A stretch of DNA of 32,035 nt from Acidimicrobiia bacterium (GTDB taxonomy: Bacteria > Actinomycetota > Acidimicrobiia > Acidimicrobiales > Poriferisodalaceae). Numbering within the stretch: the stretch's first letter is position 1; every line of letters starts with the position of its first letter. Positions 4,486 to 12,991 of the stretch are shown piece by piece. The stretch is taken from contig JAJDZE010000035.1 of NCBI GenBank assembly GCA_022824805.1, positions 1 through 32,035 of the forward strand, given 5' to 3'. Under the pieces are notes generated by a model. The model was not told the DNA's origin. It saw only the letters and a program-made list of their open reading frames with translations, and ran no database searches. Both the position numbers and the translations under genes were made by a program.

Positions 4486-5700
4486 ATGAATGAACAGGTG
4501 TTGACGCCCGAGCGAGCCGAGCTTGTGGCCAAGATGGCCGAGCTGGGGCCTGCGTTTGCCGAGCGTGCGCCCGCCTACGACCGCGATGCCAGCTTCCCGC
4601 ATGAGAACTGGGCCGATCTGGCCGATGCGGGGTTCCTGGGCTTGTGCGTGCCCAAAGAGGCCGGCGGGCTGGGTGCCGATTTCGTGGGCTACGCGCTCGT
4701 GGCCGAGGAGATGGGTCGGCATTGCGCGACGACGGCGTTGACGTTCAACATGCACACGGCCACCGCGCTGCTGTCGGGGCCGATCGCCGAGGCATTGCTG
4801 GCCGGCGAGCGCGGACGCGAGCTGGATCCCGACGGAGCCATGGCCGCACACCTTGCCGAGACCCGCCCGCACCTGTGGGAAGGCATGACGCACGGCACCG
4901 TCATCCATTCCCAGCCGTTCTCCGAGGGCCAGGCGCCGGGTGCCCGATCGGGCTTCAGCACCATGGCGGTGCCCACCGAGGGCGGCTACCGCGTGACGGG
5001 CCGCAAGATCTTCGCCTCGCTGAGCGGCGCTGCTCACATACACAACGTGCTGGCGGTGGTGGAAGGCGATCCCCACCTCCGCCTGCTCGGCGTGCCGGCC
5101 GATGGCGACGGCACGCAGATCGTCGGCGACTGGGACCCGATCGGCATGCGCGGCACCGACTCCCGCACGCTGGTGATGGACGACGTGTTCGTGCCGGCCC
5201 GCAATGAGGTGCTGCCGCCGGGCATGTTCAACGCGATGGTGGCCCGCTTCCCGCAGTTCTACATGACCTTGACGTTCAGCTATCTGGGGCTGATGCGGGC
5301 AATCCTCGACGCCACCCGCGCCTACTTGCGGGGCGAGTCGGGGGTGAAGGCGTCACGCGATCACCCGATCAAGCAGACCGGCTGGGCGCAGCTGCAGCTC
5401 ATCTACGACCGGGCGCAATCGCTGACCTACCGAGTGCTCAGCGAGCTGCGGGCCGATCCCAGCCCAGAAGAGCTGCGGCGGGCGCAGGTGGCCACAGTGA
5501 CCACCATGGAGAGCGCTCCGGAGATGGCATCGCTGGCGCTGCGGACCTGTGGCGGGAGGTCGCTGCTGCGGCCCGGCCGCCTCGAGCAGCACTACCGCGA
5601 TGCCCGCTGCGGGGCCACGATGCTGCCGTGGAGTTCCGAGGAGCTGCTGGTGCGCCTCGGCCGCAACGGCCTCTACGACGAAGTGACCGACGACGGCTAG
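4486..5700 (+). CDS. Acyl-CoA dehydrogenase family protein
   Basis: The roughly 404-residue product has the three-part acyl-CoA dehydrogenase fold. It has an N-terminal helical domain (ADAGFLGLCVPKEAGGLGAD), a middle beta domain (FSTMAVPTEGGYRVTGRKIFASLSG, then GTDSRTLVMDDVFVPA), and a C-terminal helical domain ending YRDARCGATMLPWSSEELLVRLG. It would use FAD to oxidise an acyl-CoA or related thioester to the 2,3-enoyl form, passing electrons to ETF. The substrate cannot be read from the sequence. I chose ATG 4486, preceded by AGGG six bases upstream; a GTG immediately before it at 4483 is an alternative. Placement after the oxoprolinase suggests one transcript, but no shared pathway is evident. 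Confidence 0.88.
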   Translation: MNEQVLTPERAELVAKMAELGPAFAERAPAYDRDASFPHENWADLADAGFLGLCVPKEAGGLGADFVGYALVAEEMGRHCATTALTFNMHTATALLSGPIAEALLAGERGRELDPDGAMAAHLAETRPHLWEGMTHGTVIHSQPFSEGQAPGARSGFSTMAVPTEGGYRVTGRKIFASLSGAAHIHNVLAVVEGDPHLRLLGVPADGDGTQIVGDWDPIGMRGTDSRTLVMDDVFVPARNEVLPPGMFNAMVARFPQFYMTLTFSYLGLMRAILDATRAYLRGESGVKASRDHPIKQTGWAQLQLIYDRAQSLTYRVLSELRADPSPEELRRAQVATVTTMESAPEMASLALRTCGGRSLLRPGRLEQHYRDARCGATMLPWSSEELLVRLGRNGLYDEVTDDG

Positions 5701-5753
5701 CGCTCTGCGACGTCATGTGGGGATCTTCATGCGAACGTAACGTTGCGAGCGGA

Positions 5754-5775
5754 ACGCCGCGGGCGCCTGCGGCGT
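5754..5775 (+). terminator. Small hairpin between the dehydrogenase and propeller genes
   Basis: ACGCCGC at 5754-5760 pairs with GCGGCGT at 5769-5775 across an eight-base loop. It has no U-tract. It lies 53 bases after the dehydrogenase stop and just before the next start, so it could be a weak terminator or a leader structure. Confidence 0.3.
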
Positions 5776-5786
5776 CGTGAGAGTTG

Positions 5787-8171
5787 ATGACTGAGATGCC
5801 CGAGCACACCAAGTCCACGGCCGCCAAGGCGTGGCGATTGTTCGCGGTGCTGGCTGCTGTGGGCTTGTTCGCTGCGGCCTGCGCAAGCGACGCCGATGAC
5901 AGCGCCACCGGCGGGCTGCCGCCGGACGCCACCCAACCTGCCGCCGCCGCGGCCGCCGCCGGCGATTCCAGCGCTGCCGATGACGCGCCGGGCGAGCCGG
6001 GAGGGTCCGATGAGTCGGACGGGTTCCAGTCCGGCATGGCCGGCGATGACACCGGAGAGGAGGCTGCCGCCGAAGGCACGTCCTCGGCCGGGGCTGATCC
6101 CGGCGAAGGCGATCCGCCGGCAGACGACTCCGGCTCGGACGGCAGTTCGGCTGAAGACGGGTCCGCCAGTGCGAGCGCGGAGGCGCCCTCGGACGCCGTT
6201 GCGGCCGCAGCGCTGCGTCAGTTCGACGAATGCGGCGCAGTGCTCGACTACATCCACACGAACGCGGCTGCGGCTGTTGGCCCGTGGGGCTTGGGCGGCG
6301 AGTTCGGCTTCGGCGGTGACGCACTGGCGGAGAGTGCTGTCGCCGTCGAAGACGCGGCAGCAGCCGACTTCGCTTCACCGCAGCCAGGCGTCGACTACAG
6401 CACCTCCAACGTGCAGGAAGCCGGAATCGACGAGCCTCACGTGCTCAAGACTGACGGGCGGCGCATGGTCGTGGCGAGCGAGAACCAGGTGCACGTGGTG
6501 GATGTGACCGGACCGGCGCCGACCCTGATCGCTTCTGTCCGGCTCGACGATCACTGGGTCTCGAACCTGCTGCTGCACGGCGACCGTGTGCTCGTGTTCG
6601 CGTCGCAATGGGACATCATCGTGCCGTTCGTCGATCCGGCCGACGAGGCCGCCGACTCCGAGCCGGCGCCGAGCTGGGGACCGACGACCGAGATCGTCGA
6701 GATCGATCTGAGCGGCACGACCCCACGGGTCGCCAGACGGCTCGACATCGAAGGCAACTACGTCGGCGCACGCCTGACCGATGGCGTCGTGCGGGTGGTC
6801 ACCACCTCACACCCGCGTGCGCTTCACTGGGCCGTCCCCGAGGCGGCCGACCTCGGCGCGCAGGAGCGCTCGACCGGGGCAAACCGAGATCTCATCGCCG
6901 GCACCACGGTCGATGACTGGCTGCCGCGCTTCGCGTTGAGCGATGCCTCCGGCACGGCCGTCACGGGCGGGCGCCTCGTCGACTGCGACCGGGTCTGGGC
7001 GCCCCCGCACTACGCAGGCCCGGGCACGCTCAGCGTCACCACCATCGACATTGCTGACGACGGGCTGGCCGGGGCGATGGACACCACGACGATCATGTCT
7101 GACGGCAGCACGGTGTACGCCTCGCACGATCACCTCTACGTGACCACGACGCGCTGGCACGACTGGCGCATCGAGCCGGCAGGTCCCGGCGACGGAACGC
7201 CCGTCGAGACCGAGATCCACGTGTTCGGCATCACCGGTCGAGCGACGAGCGCCTACGTCGGCTCGGCGTCGGTGACGGGCACGGTGCTGAACCAGTACTC
7301 GATGTCTGAGCACGAGGGCCACCTGCGCATCGCGACCACCACCGCCGAGCCGTGGTGGACCTGGCGCGAAGAGGTCGCCCCCGAATCGGAGAGCCTCGTG
7401 ACGGTGCTTGCGGTCGGCGCTGACGGCCTCGCAGAGGTCGGCCGCGTCGACGGGCTCGGTGTGGGCGAGCGCATCTACGCGGTGCGCTATCTCGGCGACA
7501 TCGCTGCCGTCGTGACGTTCCGCCAGATCGATCCGCTGTACCTGCTCGACCTGTCCGACCCGACCGCGCCCGCGGTGCGCGGCGAGCTGAAGATCACCGG
7601 CTACTCGGCGTATCTCCATCCGCTCGGCGACGGCCTGCTGCTCGGCGTCGGCCAGGAGGCCACCGACGAGGGCTTCACCGTGGGCACCCAGGTGTCGCTG
7701 TTCGACATCGCCGATCTGGATCGGCCCCAGCGCATTGCCCAGTGGACCGCCCCGGGCGGACACAGCCAAGTCGAGTTCAACGCGCTCGCCTTCCTGCACT
7801 GGGCGCCCCGCGACCTCGCCGTGCTGCCGTTGACTCAGCATCCGGTCGACGACAGCGGCAGCGAGCTGCCTTTCCTCGGCGCCGTAGCGCTCGGCACAGC
7901 TGACAGGCAGCTCACAGAACGCGCACGCTTCAGCCACGCAGATCAGGCGCAGCGCCAGTGCCACGAGTCGCGCCAGATCACCGTCCGTCCCGACGGCACC
8001 GAGGAGCCCGGTCCGTGGGAGCGCCACTGCTGGTTCGACACCGACTGGCAGGCGCAGGTGACCGCCAGTGCCGTAGTCGGCGACCGTCTGTACCTCGCAT
8101 CGCACAAGGCGCTCGAATCGGTCTGGCTCGACTCGCTGGAACGAGCCTCGCTGCTCACTTGGACCCGCTGA
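5787..8171 (+). CDS. Secreted lipoprotein with C-terminal beta-propeller domain
   Basis: From ATG 5787 the product is 794 residues. The N-terminus is a lipoprotein signal (AWRLFAVLAAVGLFAAAC, lipidated Cys32), followed by about 100 residues of Asp/Ser/Gly/Ala/Pro-rich linker. The folded part starts near FDECGAVLDYIH and carries YSTSNVQEAGIDEPHVLKTDGRRMVV, the hallmark of the secreted proteins with a C-terminal beta-propeller distantly related to WD-40 (Beta_propel family, COG4880). Later repeats show blades such as VHVVDVTGPAPTLIASVRL. The protein probably sits on the outer face of the membrane; the family has no established biochemical role. TTG 5784 and ATG 5796 are alternative starts. The gene converges on the minus-strand lipoprotein gene with a 30-base gap. 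Confidence 0.85.
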   Translation: MTEMPEHTKSTAAKAWRLFAVLAAVGLFAAACASDADDSATGGLPPDATQPAAAAAAAGDSSAADDAPGEPGGSDESDGFQSGMAGDDTGEEAAAEGTSSAGADPGEGDPPADDSGSDGSSAEDGSASASAEAPSDAVAAAALRQFDECGAVLDYIHTNAAAAVGPWGLGGEFGFGGDALAESAVAVEDAAAADFASPQPGVDYSTSNVQEAGIDEPHVLKTDGRRMVVASENQVHVVDVTGPAPTLIASVRLDDHWVSNLLLHGDRVLVFASQWDIIVPFVDPADEAADSEPAPSWGPTTEIVEIDLSGTTPRVARRLDIEGNYVGARLTDGVVRVVTTSHPRALHWAVPEAADLGAQERSTGANRDLIAGTTVDDWLPRFALSDASGTAVTGGRLVDCDRVWAPPHYAGPGTLSVTTIDIADDGLAGAMDTTTIMSDGSTVYASHDHLYVTTTRWHDWRIEPAGPGDGTPVETEIHVFGITGRATSAYVGSASVTGTVLNQYSMSEHEGHLRIATTTAEPWWTWREEVAPESESLVTVLAVGADGLAEVGRVDGLGVGERIYAVRYLGDIAAVVTFRQIDPLYLLDLSDPTAPAVRGELKITGYSAYLHPLGDGLLLGVGQEATDEGFTVGTQVSLFDIADLDRPQRIAQWTAPGGHSQVEFNALAFLHWAPRDLAVLPLTQHPVDDSGSELPFLGAVALGTADRQLTERARFSHADQAQRQCHESRQITVRPDGTEEPGPWERHCWFDTDWQAQVTASAVVGDRLYLASHKALESVWLDSLERASLLTWTR

Positions 8172-8201: not shown

Positions 8202-9506
8202 TCATCGGTGCCGTTCGTCGGGGTCGATCCGCTGGAACACGATGTCAAAGGGAACGTCGATGCGAGTCCGAACTTCCTCCGCAATCTTGGCGAAGAGTTG
8301 GTCCTCGGGCGGCCAACGGTTGTCATCGTAGGTATTCGGGTCGCCGGTGAGCATGACGGACCCGACGTCGTGCGGGATTCGGTAAGTGTCAATTGCGATT
8401 TCCAGCGTGTTGGTCCGGTGGTTGATCCATGTCCACGCGACAGCCTCTGACAGTTCGATCGCTCGGACAGCACCGTTGAGTGTGTCGCGCGGAAGATATA
8501 TGCCCTTACCGTCGGCGAAATGCTGCTGCGCAGATTGGAGCTGAGCGTAGGTTACTGATGCGCCCGTGCGAATCTCGATGTCAGGATGTGCCGCGGCGAG
8601 TGCTTGTGCCTGATTGCTCGGTGGATCATGACCGGTGAGCCACAGCCACGCCACAAATGACTCACCGAGCCGCGTGTACGGATCCGCCCGGTCGATACCC
8701 CAGCCAGCCGCACGATTCGATTCTGTCTCACGTAGTTCTACCAGCAATTTTTCCATTTCCGGAATGCGTTCCAGTCGACGGTTTGCTTCGGCTGGCAGGA
8801 CACGATGGGTGGACGAATAGATTGCGGTTGTGCATGCTCGTGTGAAACGATCACTCAGATTGCCGCAAGCTTCAAGGCCCGAACCGCGCAAAATACGATG
8901 ATTTCCGCACGCTACACTTCGAACGAGTAGCCATCTGGCATCGTCGACTGTGACCTCTTTCCCAAGCGAGAATGGGCCAGCAGTATGTAGTTGACGACGA
9001 AACCAGAGTTGCTTGTTCGTTTCGTCATATAGAACGAGGTCATTCGGTAATGACAGCACCCAACGCAGCGTGTCCGGGTCGTCCTCCGGAAAGCCCGGGC
9101 GCTGATGCATTCTGGGCAACACATCGAGATACAGGCACTTGCCTTCGGCATGTAGGGTACCGATAGCTTGGCTCAGAATATCATTCGCGTCCTCACGAAC
9201 TGCACGCGAGTACATTTCATGGAAATCGGCCCGCGGTAACGACCGCGGGCCTTCGACCCGTGGATACCACGAGGATTCAACAACACTAGAATTCGTGGGA
9301 GCAGAAGTTTGGTCGTCCGTCAAGGAGGCCGTTGCCGATTGCGTCAGAGTGGCAGCGGTCAGTGCCGAGCCATCGCGATCGATGAGGGTACCGGCGATGG
9401 GTTCACTTGACGTCGTTGATTCAGTATTGCTTCTTTCTGTGGATTGGTAACAGCTCGTACAAGCCATCAGTAGCAACAAAAGACCTGTGAGCACGGCGCG
9501 CCACAT
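8202..9506 (-). CDS. Lipoprotein with a domain repeating the adjacent protease propeptide
   Basis: The product is 434 residues. It starts with a lipoprotein signal (VLTGLLLLLMAC, Cys16), then a Ser/Thr-rich tether and a domain at about 95-235 that I do not recognise (LYLDVLPRMHQRPGF, FTRACTTAIYSS). Residues about 240-434 align by eye with residues about 85-273 of the protease encoded just upstream. Shared blocks are RRLERIPEM/RRLERIPAL, AAGWGID/LAGWGID, AWLWLTGHDPP/AWVWLTGTQPP, ALAAAHPDIEIRTGASVTYAQLQSAQQHF/ALAAAHSDVQIRTGAQVTFAALAAAQDQF, NTLEIAIDT/NALEIGIDT and IDVPFDIV/IAVPYNVI. No serine protease domain follows. The gene lies 53 bases downstream of the protease gene on the same strand and is less GC-rich than its surroundings. 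By inference it could be a membrane-tethered chaperone or inhibitor of the protease; its function is unproven. Confidence 0.75.
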   Translation of the reverse strand: MWRAVLTGLLLLLMACTSCYQSTERSNTESTTSSEPIAGTLIDRDGSALTAATLTQSATASLTDDQTSAPTNSSVVESSWYPRVEGPRSLPRADFHEMYSRAVREDANDILSQAIGTLHAEGKCLYLDVLPRMHQRPGFPEDDPDTLRWVLSLPNDLVLYDETNKQLWFRRQLHTAGPFSLGKEVTVDDARWLLVRSVACGNHRILRGSGLEACGNLSDRFTRACTTAIYSSTHRVLPAEANRRLERIPEMEKLLVELRETESNRAAGWGIDRADPYTRLGESFVAWLWLTGHDPPSNQAQALAAAHPDIEIRTGASVTYAQLQSAQQHFADGKGIYLPRDTLNGAVRAIELSEAVAWTWINHRTNTLEIAIDTYRIPHDVGSVMLTGDPNTYDDNRWPPEDQLFAKIAEEVRTRIDVPFDIVFQRIDPDERHR

Positions 9507-9559
9507 ATCAGAACCAATTCGCGCCCAATGCTGACCGTGTCGCGAGCAGCACGCGGTGA

Positions 9560-11035
9560 CTATGGCACATCCTCAGGCCAGTTGGTCACGACTTCAACCC
9601 CAAGAACATTCTGTACTCGTCGGATCGAACTGAAGACAATAAATGAATTAGCCTTGTTGCACGGATTGTTTTCTGGTCCGGCCTTATGAATACCATAAGC
9701 GGCATTGTAGCTGTAGACTGGGCCGCCGCTATCGCCTCTGCATGACCGGAGATTGGATCCCGATGCGCGAACAAACACCGCTTGGCACGTACCTCCGTAT
9801 CCATCACATCCATCGCCGCCGCTGGGCTGGAATCTGATGTTGTCTACAGTGCCGCAGCTGACACCGGAATTGGTGCCCGCGCGGCACACATGATCGCCAA
9901 GCATGAGCAGCCGCCCTGGACCGATGCTTCGGATTGCGCAGGTTCGAGGGTTTTCGGGATGACTGCTGCAGACGATGTCGTTGGTGGCGGTATGAGCTTG
10001 GCTCCTCGGAATGAGATAGATGGCTGCGTCATTGCTGGCGTTGTATGCGCGCGCTCCGAACTCAAGCGTCACGCCTTGTGTCGTCCATGTGGTGTGACGG
10101 CAGTGGCCAGCGGTGATGATCCCATACCTGCCGCTGTTGCGGTGATAGGCGGTGAATCCGGAAGTGCAGACAGCTGATCCGTTTGTCATCCGGTGGCCGC
10201 CTTCGAAGTCGACTTGGTCCTCGATTGCATCCGCTTCAATGACGTTGTAGGGGACGGCGATATGTGGGGCGAGTAGGGCGGCGATGGTGGTCAGTCTGTC
10301 GGCGCCGCTTGGGGCGACACCGGTGTTGCCAGTCGGCCCGAACGGCCCACGGTCTTCCGGAGCGTCGAGAGCACCCGATGGTGGGGCTGGGGCGCTGCTG
10401 GTGTCGATGCCGATTTCGAGCGCGTTTGCTCTCAGGTCCACGGCGGTGTGTGTGATCAGATCGCTGACGTCGATCTGGGCACTGTCTGCCGCACCGGTAT
10501 TGCCGACTGGCCCGACGCCCTCACCGATGCCGAACTGGTCTTGGGCTGCGGCGAGCGCTGCGAACGTGACCTGTGCACCGGTGCGGATCTGTACATCGCT
10601 ATGTGCAGCGGCGAGTGCTGCGGCGGCGCTGCCGGGCGGCTGTGTGCCGGTGAGCCATACCCAAGCGATCATTGGACCGTGATGGTCGATGCCCCAACCG
10701 GCAAGCCGATCCGCTTCGAGAGTGTGGAGAGCGCCGATGATGTCCTGCAATGCCGGGATGCGTTCGAGTCGTCGCTGCGCCTCGATGAGAGTGACCGAGT
10801 AGTCCGATGCGTAGGAGGCCACGATTGGGTGTGCTGCGGGCTCGTTGTCAGCTGAACTCTGGGCGAGAGCGTTCGCTGGCAGCAGGGCACCGAGTGCGCA
10901 GGCTACGAGAAGCGAGATGAGTGCTTGTCGCCGTCTGCGGTGCCGTGGATCGCCTCGTGTCTGTCGGTGTGGGTGGTGTTGCATGGGCTGTCTCTTTTCG
11001 AGCCGACGGCGGGCTCGGGCGAGACGGCTCGCCAC
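9560..11035 (-). CDS. Secreted trypsin-like (S1, streptogrisin/alpha-lytic type) serine protease with propeptide
   Basis: The product is 491 residues. A long Arg/His-rich n-region precedes a hydrophobic signal segment (ALISLLVACALGALLPANALA, residues 38-58), followed by a propeptide of about 220 residues and the protease domain from about residue 280. The catalytic triad is visible as His311 (IITAGHC), Asp336 (NASNDAAIY) and Ser436 (CRGDSGGP). The short His-Asp spacing and the Cys290/Cys312 pair fit streptogrisin or alpha-lytic enzymes, which need their propeptide to fold. The propeptide holds two PxGNTG inserts (residues 176-181 and 234-239). I chose GTG 11035 because AGAGGA lies six bases upstream on the minus strand; ATG 10984 would give a more usual signal peptide length. 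The propeptide-like lipoprotein gene is next downstream, probably in the same transcript. Confidence 0.88.
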   Translation of the reverse strand: MASRLARARRRLEKRQPMQHHPHRQTRGDPRHRRRRQALISLLVACALGALLPANALAQSSADNEPAAHPIVASYASDYSVTLIEAQRRLERIPALQDIIGALHTLEADRLAGWGIDHHGPMIAWVWLTGTQPPGSAAAALAAAHSDVQIRTGAQVTFAALAAAQDQFGIGEGVGPVGNTGAADSAQIDVSDLITHTAVDLRANALEIGIDTSSAPAPPSGALDAPEDRGPFGPTGNTGVAPSGADRLTTIAALLAPHIAVPYNVIEADAIEDQVDFEGGHRMTNGSAVCTSGFTAYHRNSGRYGIITAGHCRHTTWTTQGVTLEFGARAYNASNDAAIYLIPRSQAHTATNDIVCSSHPENPRTCAIRSIGPGRLLMLGDHVCRAGTNSGVSCGTVDNIRFQPSGGDGCDGYGGTCQAVFVRASGSNLRSCRGDSGGPVYSYNAAYGIHKAGPENNPCNKANSFIVFSSIRRVQNVLGVEVVTNWPEDVP

Positions 11036-12280: not shown

Positions 12281-12317
12281 ATATATGAACTATGCCGAAC
12301 ACGGGGTATTCATATAT
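12281..12317. promoter_or_regulatory. Inverted repeat upstream of vapBC, candidate operator
   Basis: ATATATGAA at 12281-12289 and its exact reverse complement TTCATATAT at 12309-12317 are separated by 19 bases. The block is strikingly AT-rich for this genome. It ends 20 bases before the TATATT box of vapB. Inverted repeats at this position are where VapB-VapC complexes of known systems bind to repress their own operon. Confidence 0.55.
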
Positions 12318-12337
12318 TTGATCACCAGCAAACGAGA

Positions 12338-12343
12338 TATATT
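12338..12343 (+). promoter_or_regulatory. Putative -10 box (TATATT) of vapBC
   Basis: TATATT is nearly the consensus -10 hexamer and ends seven bases before the vapB ATG at 12351. No Shine-Dalgarno sequence is present, so the transcript is likely leaderless. TTGATC at 12318 would leave only a 14-base spacer, so the -35 box is uncertain. Confidence 0.5.
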
Positions 12344-12350
12344 CGCCGCC

Positions 12351-12572
12351 ATGACCAAACGACTTGTCGACATCGACGACGACGCGCTGCAACAGGCCCG
12401 GACTGCGCTCGGCGACGTCACCATCAAGGAAGCCGTGAACACTGGTCTGCGCGAGATCTGCGACCGCCACAAGCGTCGGCGCCTGTTCCGAAGCATTCAA
12501 GAATTGGCACGTGCCGATCTCGGTGACGCCGACGTGATGCACGGCGCGTGGCTGCAAGCCGCCGAGCGGTGA
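12351..12572 (+). CDS. vapB: VapB-type antitoxin
   Basis: The product is 73 residues. MTKRLVDIDDDALQQARTAL followed by VTIKEAVNTGLREICDR is the ribbon-helix-helix pattern of the VapB / DUF2191 antitoxins: a short strand that contacts DNA, then two helices. The C-terminal part (RRRLFRSIQELARADLGDADVMHGAW) would wrap the toxin. Its stop codon overlaps the start of the PIN-domain gene in the arrangement GTGA, the usual antitoxin-first, translationally coupled order. I chose ATG 12351 because it starts the family homology and follows a TATATT box. It probably represses its own promoter through the inverted repeat at 12281-12317. Confidence 0.85.
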   Translation: MTKRLVDIDDDALQQARTALGDVTIKEAVNTGLREICDRHKRRRLFRSIQELARADLGDADVMHGAWLQAAER

Positions 12573-12991
12573 GCGCCGCATCGCAGCCCCTGTACCTAGC
12601 AGACAAGAGCGCGCTTGCCCGCAGCCATCTCGAAGCGGTCGCGCAGGTGCTCGGGCCGCTGTTCGATGCCGCACAGGTCGTCACCTGTCCGATCATCGAC
12701 TTGGAACTGCTGTTCAGCGCCCGCAACGAAGCCGAGCATCGCTCTCTGCGTGCTGAGCTTGGCGTGCTGCGGTCGTTTCCGATCAACGAACAGATCACCG
12801 ATCGCGCGGTCGAGGTGCAGGGACTGCTGGCAGCCACTGGCCAACACCGGGTGCCGATCGCCGATCTGTTGATCTCGGCAGTCGCGGAGTCGAACGACCT
12901 GATGGTGCTGCACTACGACCGCGACTTCGACACGATCGCTGCGGTCACCGGCCAGCCTGTCGAATGGGTCGTGACCCGCGGCTCGCTATGA
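12569..12991 (+). CDS. vapC: VapC-type toxin, PIN-domain ribonuclease
   Basis: The product is 140 residues from GTG 12569. It has the PIN-domain acidic residues: Asp12 (YLADKSAL), Glu46 (IIDLELLFSAR), Asp99 (VPIADLLISAVA) and Asp117/Asp119 (HYDRDFDTIA). These hold Mg2+ for cleavage of RNA, in known VapCs usually tRNA or the 23S rRNA sarcin-ricin loop. The target here cannot be predicted. The first motif reads ADKSAL instead of the commoner LDTSAL. The gene appears complete. Its 3' end recurs as a fragment after aroC (14124-14216). Confidence 0.88.
   Translation: MSAASQPLYLADKSALARSHLEAVAQVLGPLFDAAQVVTCPIIDLELLFSARNEAEHRSLRAELGVLRSFPINEQITDRAVEVQGLLAATGQHRVPIADLLISAVAESNDLMVLHYDRDFDTIAAVTGQPVEWVVTRGSL

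Follow-up and report, generated by a model that had tools for sequence, protein, structure and literature searches.

What does a bacterium gain from placing a copy of a protease propeptide in a separate surface protein, right beside the protease itself? The question is raised by two adjoining genes in a 32,035-nucleotide stretch of DNA from an Acidimicrobiia bacterium (assembly GCA_022824805.1, contig JAJDZE010000035.1), which, taken whole, is called the window here. One gene encodes a secreted serine protease of the S1 family, and the gene downstream of it a lipoprotein whose C-terminal part resembles the propeptide. In alpha-lytic protease, the textbook example, the propeptide both folds the enzyme to which it belongs and inhibits it. 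We find that the resemblance reflects homology, with a predicted Pro-region fold, that the mature enzyme has been exchanged between relatives together with the N-terminal half of the lipoprotein, and that the lipoprotein genes outlast the protease genes. We consider it probable that the lipoprotein guards cells against the protease. The parts of the locus are as follows.

9560–11035, minus strand: secreted S1 (alpha-lytic type) protease precursor, an open reading frame of 491 amino acids from a GTG
10220–10822, minus strand: propeptide (Pro) domain of the protease, residues 72–272, from alignment and profile
9560–10213, minus strand: mature protease domain, in the exchanged segment, from stepwise DNA identity to genome G020
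8202–9506, minus strand: lipoprotein of 434 amino acids, with signal and lipobox, linker, extra domain and propeptide copy, from the open reading frame and profiles
8841–9248, minus strand: 'extra' domain, residues 87–222, beta-rich and perhaps weakly OB-like, in the exchanged segment, from a profile
8220–8828, minus strand: propeptide copy, residues 227–429, protease-free, with a predicted alpha-lytic Pro-region fold, from alignment and model
9507–9559: gap of 53 bp between the protease stop and the lipoprotein start

Both reading frames lie where the original prediction, made from the letters of the window alone, had placed them, adjoining on the minus strand and 53 bp apart. Across 15 measured pairs the distance from protease to lipoprotein ran from −17 to 53 bp, which is operon-like. 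Homologues that begin MRHQ or MRHH suggest that translation of the protease more likely begins with the ATG at 10984. The lipoprotein opens with MWRAVLTGLLLLLMAC, a lipobox-like start, and a pattern match places the lipobox cysteine of its signal peptide in LMAC at residues 13–16; several homologues have irregular lipoboxes.

Homology and predicted fold of the propeptide copy

In a BLASTP comparison, residues 228–423 of the lipoprotein aligned with residues 73–266 of the protease at 37% identity over 206 columns (113 bits, E = 1e-31), a value that rules out chance similarity. When the window's whole genome was searched, the lipoprotein matched the adjacent propeptide at E = 6.6e-32; the other four hits fell on separate contigs, namely C68, with a two-domain lipoprotein (E = 3.7e-51), C164 and C105, each with a protease, and C82, where similarity was weak. 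An AlphaFold2 model of the lipoprotein, built on a 24-row alignment, had a mean predicted local distance difference test score (pLDDT) of 72.8 and a predicted template modelling score of 0.55. Within residues 231–430 the pLDDT was 84–98 in 15 of the 20 ten-residue blocks and 62–77 in the remaining five. Searched with Foldseek against 350,542 PDB chains, the model returned the alpha-lytic Pro region at ranks 1–3 with probability 1.00 (4pro_D, E = 3e-5; 3pro_D, E = 1.1e-4; 2pro_A, E = 6.9e-4). Alignment and model together confirm the copy as a homologue of the propeptide with a predicted Pro-region fold. The original prediction had drawn this relationship from a series of shared residue blocks and had proposed profile and structure comparisons as the check; the blocks are present in the alignment, and both comparisons bear it out. 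It had also divided the lipoprotein into an extra domain at about 95–235 and a copy at 240–434; the two domains are there, at about 87–222 and 227–429.

The copies end near the position of the junction between propeptide and mature enzyme, except for that of locus L056, which is 26 residues longer. What adjoins the protease gene is, as with the streptococcal inhibitor Spi discussed below, a propeptide homologue without a protease. Pfam family PF02983 was reached at its curated cut-off by none of these domains: three of 22 Pro domains matched at E up to 5 (best 0.024), the window lipoprotein gave no match up to E = 1, and the copy of locus L060 scored 14.2 bits where the cut-off is 23.4.

The protease matched Pfam Trypsin with 34.5 bits, and its model is nearest to NAPase (2oua, E = 1e-15), followed by TFPA and alpha-lytic protease. 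H311, D336 and S436 are invariant across 19 alignment rows, the Asp being assigned by alignment and presumed catalytic; a chymotrypsin fold with His, Asp and Ser marks the enzyme as S1 of the alpha-lytic type. Sequence searches of the PDB, whether by individual proteins or by the Pro profile, gave no Pro-region matches, and one of them yielded weak protease matches. Two Gly-rich loops of the protease propeptide, GPFGPTGNTG (window 10319–10348) and GPVGNTG (10493–10513), are of low confidence in the model, and both are missing from the five lipoprotein copies of the window's genus.

Joint replacement of the mature domain and the lipoprotein N-terminal half

The window shares its locus with genome G020, and the two were compared in 100-bp steps of DNA identity. 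The flanking genes are mostly 84–98% identical, with six steps in a beta-propeller gene at 68–79%. The protease signal and propeptide are 90–96% identical, the junction step falls to 82%, and the mature protease domain to 65–74%. Identity is lowest, 42–66%, in the intergenic stretch and in the signal, linker and extra domain of the lipoprotein. The first step of the copy is at 68%, after which identity is 86–95% to its end and 91–92% in the next two steps. Synonymous divergence (dS) follows the same outline, being 0.23 in the propeptide, 0.69 in the N-terminal and 0.16 in the C-terminal part of the copy, and saturated in the mature and extra domains. Fast evolution in place of replacement is ruled out, as the mature and extra domains are saturated at synonymous sites, whereas neither the propeptide nor most of the copy is.

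A second site, G020:C48 against G019:C1, is free of the copy and has the same form. Its propeptide is 94–99% identical, with a last step of 75%, the mature domain 49–70%, the lipoprotein 35–60%, the upstream genes 88–100% and the downstream gene 76–97%. At both replaced loci the proportion of synonymous differences was 0.74–0.78 in the mature domain and 0.10–0.20 in the propeptide. Trees of the two parts conflict: in approximately unbiased (AU) tests, the Pro domain rejected a grouping of G020 with G015:C24 (p = 0.0115) and the mature domain a grouping of the window with G020 (p = 0.036), both modest values. The mature enzyme thus appears, from these comparisons, to have been exchanged jointly with the N-terminal half of the lipoprotein and not with the bulk of the copy. 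A fifth comparison, in which one side lacks the protease (G021 against C82 of the window's own genome), gave a dS of 0.8 for the lipoproteins and 0.25 for the downstream gene.

Loss of proteases and persistence of lipoproteins

Our census comprises 46 loci classified with three profiles, a protease counting as intact when the Pro and mature domains lie in one frame with the His and Ser. Some locus searches took the Pro or mature domain as their starting point and others the extra domain; loci in named genomes were found through the Pro domain alone. Intact proteases occur at 24 loci; the genome searches supplied 16 of these, and the other eight come from named genomes only. An intact lipoprotein frame without an intact protease was found at 16 loci, ten of them with a visibly broken protease (L032, L055, L056, L058, L061, L074, L077, L104, L107 and L153) and six with no protease to be seen (L033, L060, L105, L151, L152 and L155). 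The reverse, an intact protease without a lipoprotein, occurs at none of the 46 loci. Under even-handed loss, 16 against 0 has a probability of 1.5e-5. Three loci were set aside, L154 and L158 at contig ends and L081 with the start of its Pro domain missing, and at L082, L084 and L167 both genes are damaged or the lipoprotein is not seen.

Several of these orphans lie in the window's own genome. On C82, relatives of the tandem lipoproteins of G021 remain where the protease has been deleted apart from about its first 32 codons, and C68 and C179 carry further protease-less lipoproteins. Genomes G280, G225 and G426, with metagenome assemblies 95–97% complete, keep lipoproteins, and an intact family protease was not found in them; G225 has only distant S1 enzymes. 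L153 has, after a C-terminal protease remnant, a 563-residue lipoprotein (5020–6711) with two extra domains and about 200 residues of another kind.

The constant partner of the protease

The lipoprotein lies directly downstream of the protease at 24 of 24 intact loci of the census, as either the extra-domain or a META-like type. Among these the lipoprotein is cut by a contig end in L035, L069 and L071, the protease signal is cut in L026, and the META-like type stands in L057 and L059. In the window's genus, the extra-domain lipoprotein follows the protease directly on the same strand at all 12 protease loci first found, among which L032 has a damaged propeptide; a protease remnant in G016 later became the thirteenth genus locus. 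The copy is present at four of the 12 (the window, G020:C42, G015:C24 and G015:C32) and absent at eight, and the G021 locus has two extra-domain lipoproteins in tandem. The constant partner of the protease family is accordingly the extra domain, and the copy is a recurrent add-on. The original prediction had made the copy the essence of the pair, an emphasis that these counts do not support. The survey of other genomes that it had proposed upheld the pairing of protease and lipoprotein; the copy is absent from most of the lipoproteins.

Matches to the lipoprotein occur in six of the 39 genomes of the window genome's family, all in one genus (6 of 11). Across 395 genomes of the class the Pro domain was found in nine and the extra domain in seven, and the two co-occur in five where 0.16 would be expected (P = 3e-8). 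A phylum-wide search with the Pro profile hit three of 396 genomes, the window's own and two with weak, partial matches (L189 in G547, E = 1e-9; L190 in G552, E = 4e-7). A pattern scan of named genomes yielded 23 loci, all metagenome-assembled, under titles of Acidimicrobiia and relatives, Actinomycetota, Candidatus Aldehydirespirator or simply 'bacterium'; from the isolate names, we take many to come from marine sponges.

The extra domain has no family match in Pfam or NCBIfam. Foldseek gave it weak matches, among them RNA polymerase C17–C25, NlpE and a mycobacterial SSB, which we take to be OB folds, and an OB-like fold may be treated as a lead, not as a result. In three of the four Pro-domain genomes outside the five shared ones, G408, G339 and G360 (L057, L058 and L059), a META-like lipoprotein, 36–50% identical among the three, occupies the same place; Pfam META scores below its cut-off in two of them, and L059 is without a META match. 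The fourth of these Pro-domain genomes, G225, has the orphan lipoprotein L060, in which a copy and a partial extra domain share one frame (456–1925) with META (38.6 bits), linking both types of lipoprotein.

The census leaves aside L156 (G302), with one weak extra-domain match, and eight distant S1 proteases (L159–L166, in G225, G207, G379, G406, G264 and G045) whose propeptides fall outside the family profile, that of L161 matching it only weakly (E = 3e-6). In this distant set a lipoprotein overlaps the end of the protease by 1 to 23 nt in L160 (3456–3956), L161 (4010–4738), L163 (3211–3630) and L166 (3984–4412); none is in view in three, and L159 is ambiguous. The pairing of protease and lipoprotein may be wider than the family with a matching propeptide.

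Repeated gain of the copy, selection and genomic site

Among 33 Pro domains placed in one tree, the copies of the window's genus, five in all, form one clade (support 100/99) beside the proteases of the window group (98/91), and the copy of L057 groups among the proteases of the META type (100/97). Forcing all eight copies into one clade was rejected (AU p = 1.1e-4), as was a clade of the genus copies with L057 alone (3.4e-5); a clade of the genus copies with the copy of L056 was not rejected (p = 0.18). The tree indicates that the copy arose independently at least twice, and further gains may be masked by long branches. Concerted evolution of the copy with the neighbouring propeptide is ruled out, as the five genus copies cluster apart from their neighbours.

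All five copies of the genus have open frames, and the ratio of nonsynonymous to synonymous rates (dN/dS) of the copy was 0.12–0.25 wherever dS was finite (the window, G020 and G015:C24). The propeptide of the protease is likewise under purifying selection (0.17–0.25). A decayed gene fragment is ruled out as the nature of the copy by its open frame and by a dN/dS that stayed under 0.3 in every comparison that allowed its calculation. The orphan tandem lipoproteins gave 0.18 and 0.31 against those of G021, where part of the divergence may predate the loss of the protease.

The G+C content is 55–58% in the lipoprotein and mature protease, 65% in the propeptide and 64–72% in the flanks. The close PAC2 neighbour is found in 10 of 11 genomes of the genus, and the cassette occupies this site in none of the eight that were fetched besides the window and G020; at the window site it is accessory. 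Between PAC2 and aroC (12285–12991) the window also has a VapB-like antitoxin (Pfam E = 8e-6) with a PIN-domain toxin (3e-9), a pair missing at the same place in G020.

A proposed guard role and its alternatives

We think it fairly probable that the two genes form a protease-guard pair, in which the lipoprotein, as cognate inhibitor, protects cells from the protease in the manner of a toxin–immunity cassette. The protease would be secreted as a zymogen and folded by its own N-terminal Pro domain, as suggested by its alpha-lytic fold. The lipoprotein, anchored outside the cytoplasmic membrane, would bind and inhibit the mature protease and so shield the producer and its kin, and the protease may harm competing cells. 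The extra domain would be the specificity part, matched to and exchanged with a particular mature domain; the copy, where present, would add a second, general inhibitory module of the Pro type, and with its C-terminus at about the cleavage junction it could fill the active-site cleft in the way of a cleaved Pro region. The prodomain of alpha-lytic protease serves as folding aid and inhibitor (PMC2605481), and its folding and junction cleavage are treated in PMC2829044. Polymorphic toxins have the order toxin then immunity gene, joint 3′ replacement and strings of immunity genes (PMC3482391), and the gene order and joint 3′ replacement seen here are what such an arrangement predicts. A variable C-terminal domain and the downstream partner were replaced behind a constant N-terminal part in two of the four orthologous comparisons, and orphan partner genes without an effector are found at 16 loci, against none of the reverse kind.

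A broader formulation is more tentative, and we stop just short of calling it probable. It holds that these loci form a polymorphic effector–immunity system built on secreted S1 proteases, with a constant propeptide, exchangeable mature domains and matched guard lipoproteins, into which the propeptide was recruited at least twice, independently, as a second and universal inhibitor. If it were true, orphan guards in protease-less genomes would be defences against the proteases of neighbours.

Several observations weigh against a guard role. Most family lipoproteins are without the copy, which is therefore not essential, and at the window locus the copy falls largely beyond the replaced segment, in conserved sequence, and so does not track the mature domain. 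Replacement was absent in two of the four orthologous comparisons, L030 with L032 and L027 with C164/C181 of the window's own genome; in the latter the mature domains share 87% identity, and the propeptide and the lipoprotein are close as well. An obligate partner, whether tether or chaperone, would also explain the 24 of 24 pairing, and among the eight distant S1 proteases of the class just four have a small lipoprotein directly downstream. Some of the asymmetry may be technical, since L055, L058 and L077, each with a single stop or split, are possibly metagenome assembly errors, and 13 loci remain without them. A strict lipobox is present at 20 of 23 tested intact-protease loci and at 8 of 15 tested protease-less loci, the remaining seven having, by eye, a cysteine after a hydrophobic stretch, which makes the anchoring or full function of some orphan lipoproteins less sure. 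Finally, we know of no case of toxicity of such proteases to any cell.

Of the three roles offered by the original prediction, trans-acting foldase, surface docking partner and self-protection inhibitor, the last is favoured because the lipoproteins outlast the protease (16 loci, against 0 of 24 in the other direction) and because the mature domain is swapped together with the lipoprotein N-terminal half. Docking, by which the lipoprotein would hold the mature protease on the producer with the copy as binding handle, so that the products of digestion stay with the producer, is in our view unlikely. It accords with the lipid anchor, with the invariant pairing and with a prodomain that inhibits, and so binds, the mature enzyme (PMC2605481), and the joint replacement also suits a binding pair. 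A tether would be pointless without a protease, yet protease-less loci number 16 and three genomes that keep the lipoprotein showed no intact family protease; moreover, a Pro domain would be expected to block the enzyme being held.

We regard as somewhat less likely still that the copy is a by-product, left when tandem duplication of the cassette and a deletion fused a lipoprotein to the next propeptide, and serving only as recombination homology at the downstream end. Such a fusion is an easy route, the copy does form the downstream border of the segment replaced between the window and G020, and copy-less lipoproteins stand beside other intact proteases. Set against this are the low dN/dS, the repeated independent gains, the retained predicted fold and the five open genus copies; the second replaced locus is free of the copy, which was thus unneeded for exchange. 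Least probable is a trans-acting foldase or maturation factor resembling LipH, the membrane-anchored steric chaperone of the exported lipase LipA (PMC13381987): the copy has the predicted Pro-region fold and LipH sets a precedent for an anchored chaperone, but the role is disfavoured because the window protease and its intact relatives, unlike clients without a folding propeptide, retain a full Pro domain of their own, which wherever dN/dS was calculated is under purifying selection, and because the copy is absent at 8 of the 12 genus loci, while orphan lipoproteins persist.

Comparison with known systems

Proteases beside dedicated inhibitor genes are known from other families. In the SpeB–Spi pair of Streptococcus pyogenes and in staphopain–staphostatin, the protease adjoins a co-transcribed inhibitor gene, and Spi is a propeptide analogue (PMC2873492). 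SpeB, however, is a cysteine protease of family C10 and not S1, and Spi is not described as fused or as a lipoprotein in the parts of that source cited here. The same source describes the Bfp and Bfi protease–inhibitor pairs of Bacteroides fragilis, of which bfp1 and bfp4 are co-transcribed with their inhibitors; Bfi1B and Bfi4 have predicted lipoprotein signals, and cell protection has been proposed. The Bfi proteins differ in being staphostatin-like, with no significant identity to propeptides (PMC2873492). SUB1-ProM of Plasmodium is a stand-alone, propeptide-like potent inhibitor whose locus adjoins subtilisin-like genes, but its propeptide is that of a eukaryotic subtilase, and the relevant parts of the source mention no lipid anchor or second domain (PMC6993865). 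Protealysin and emfourin of Serratia share one operon and have been proposed as antibacterial effector and immunity protein; protealysin is a metalloprotease, and emfourin is not described, in the parts considered, as a propeptide copy (PMC9505478).

Polymorphic toxins resemble the present loci in their constant 5′ part, variable 3′ toxin domain and jointly replaced downstream immunity gene (PMC3482391). The present loci differ in what fills these places, a signal peptide followed by a Pro domain forming the constant part and an S1 protease the variable one. The word 'trypsin' is absent from 300,000 of the 357,715 characters of that survey. In the open-access literature searched we found no S1 or alpha-lytic propeptide set apart in a lipoprotein of its own, nor a lipid-anchored, exchangeable, propeptide-like inhibitor of S1 enzymes. 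Propeptide-like inhibitors beside proteases are already known, and the lipid-anchored S1 version appears to be new as far as the searched literature goes. The original prediction had stated that no pair of this form was described, which holds within that literature for S1 proteases and fails more broadly, SpeB–Spi and SUB1-ProM being analogous in other families.

Implications

In the course of evolution a propeptide appears to have been put to new use more than once, as part of a distinct surface protein where its neighbour is a dedicated partner domain without a match among Pfam or NCBIfam families. The two modules are of small size, and swapped alleles supply ready-made cognate and non-cognate pairs for the study of specificity. 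If the guard role is true, the partner domain would be a new family of inhibitors against S1 proteases, and secreted serine proteases would be exchangeable antagonistic effectors in uncultured actinobacteria.

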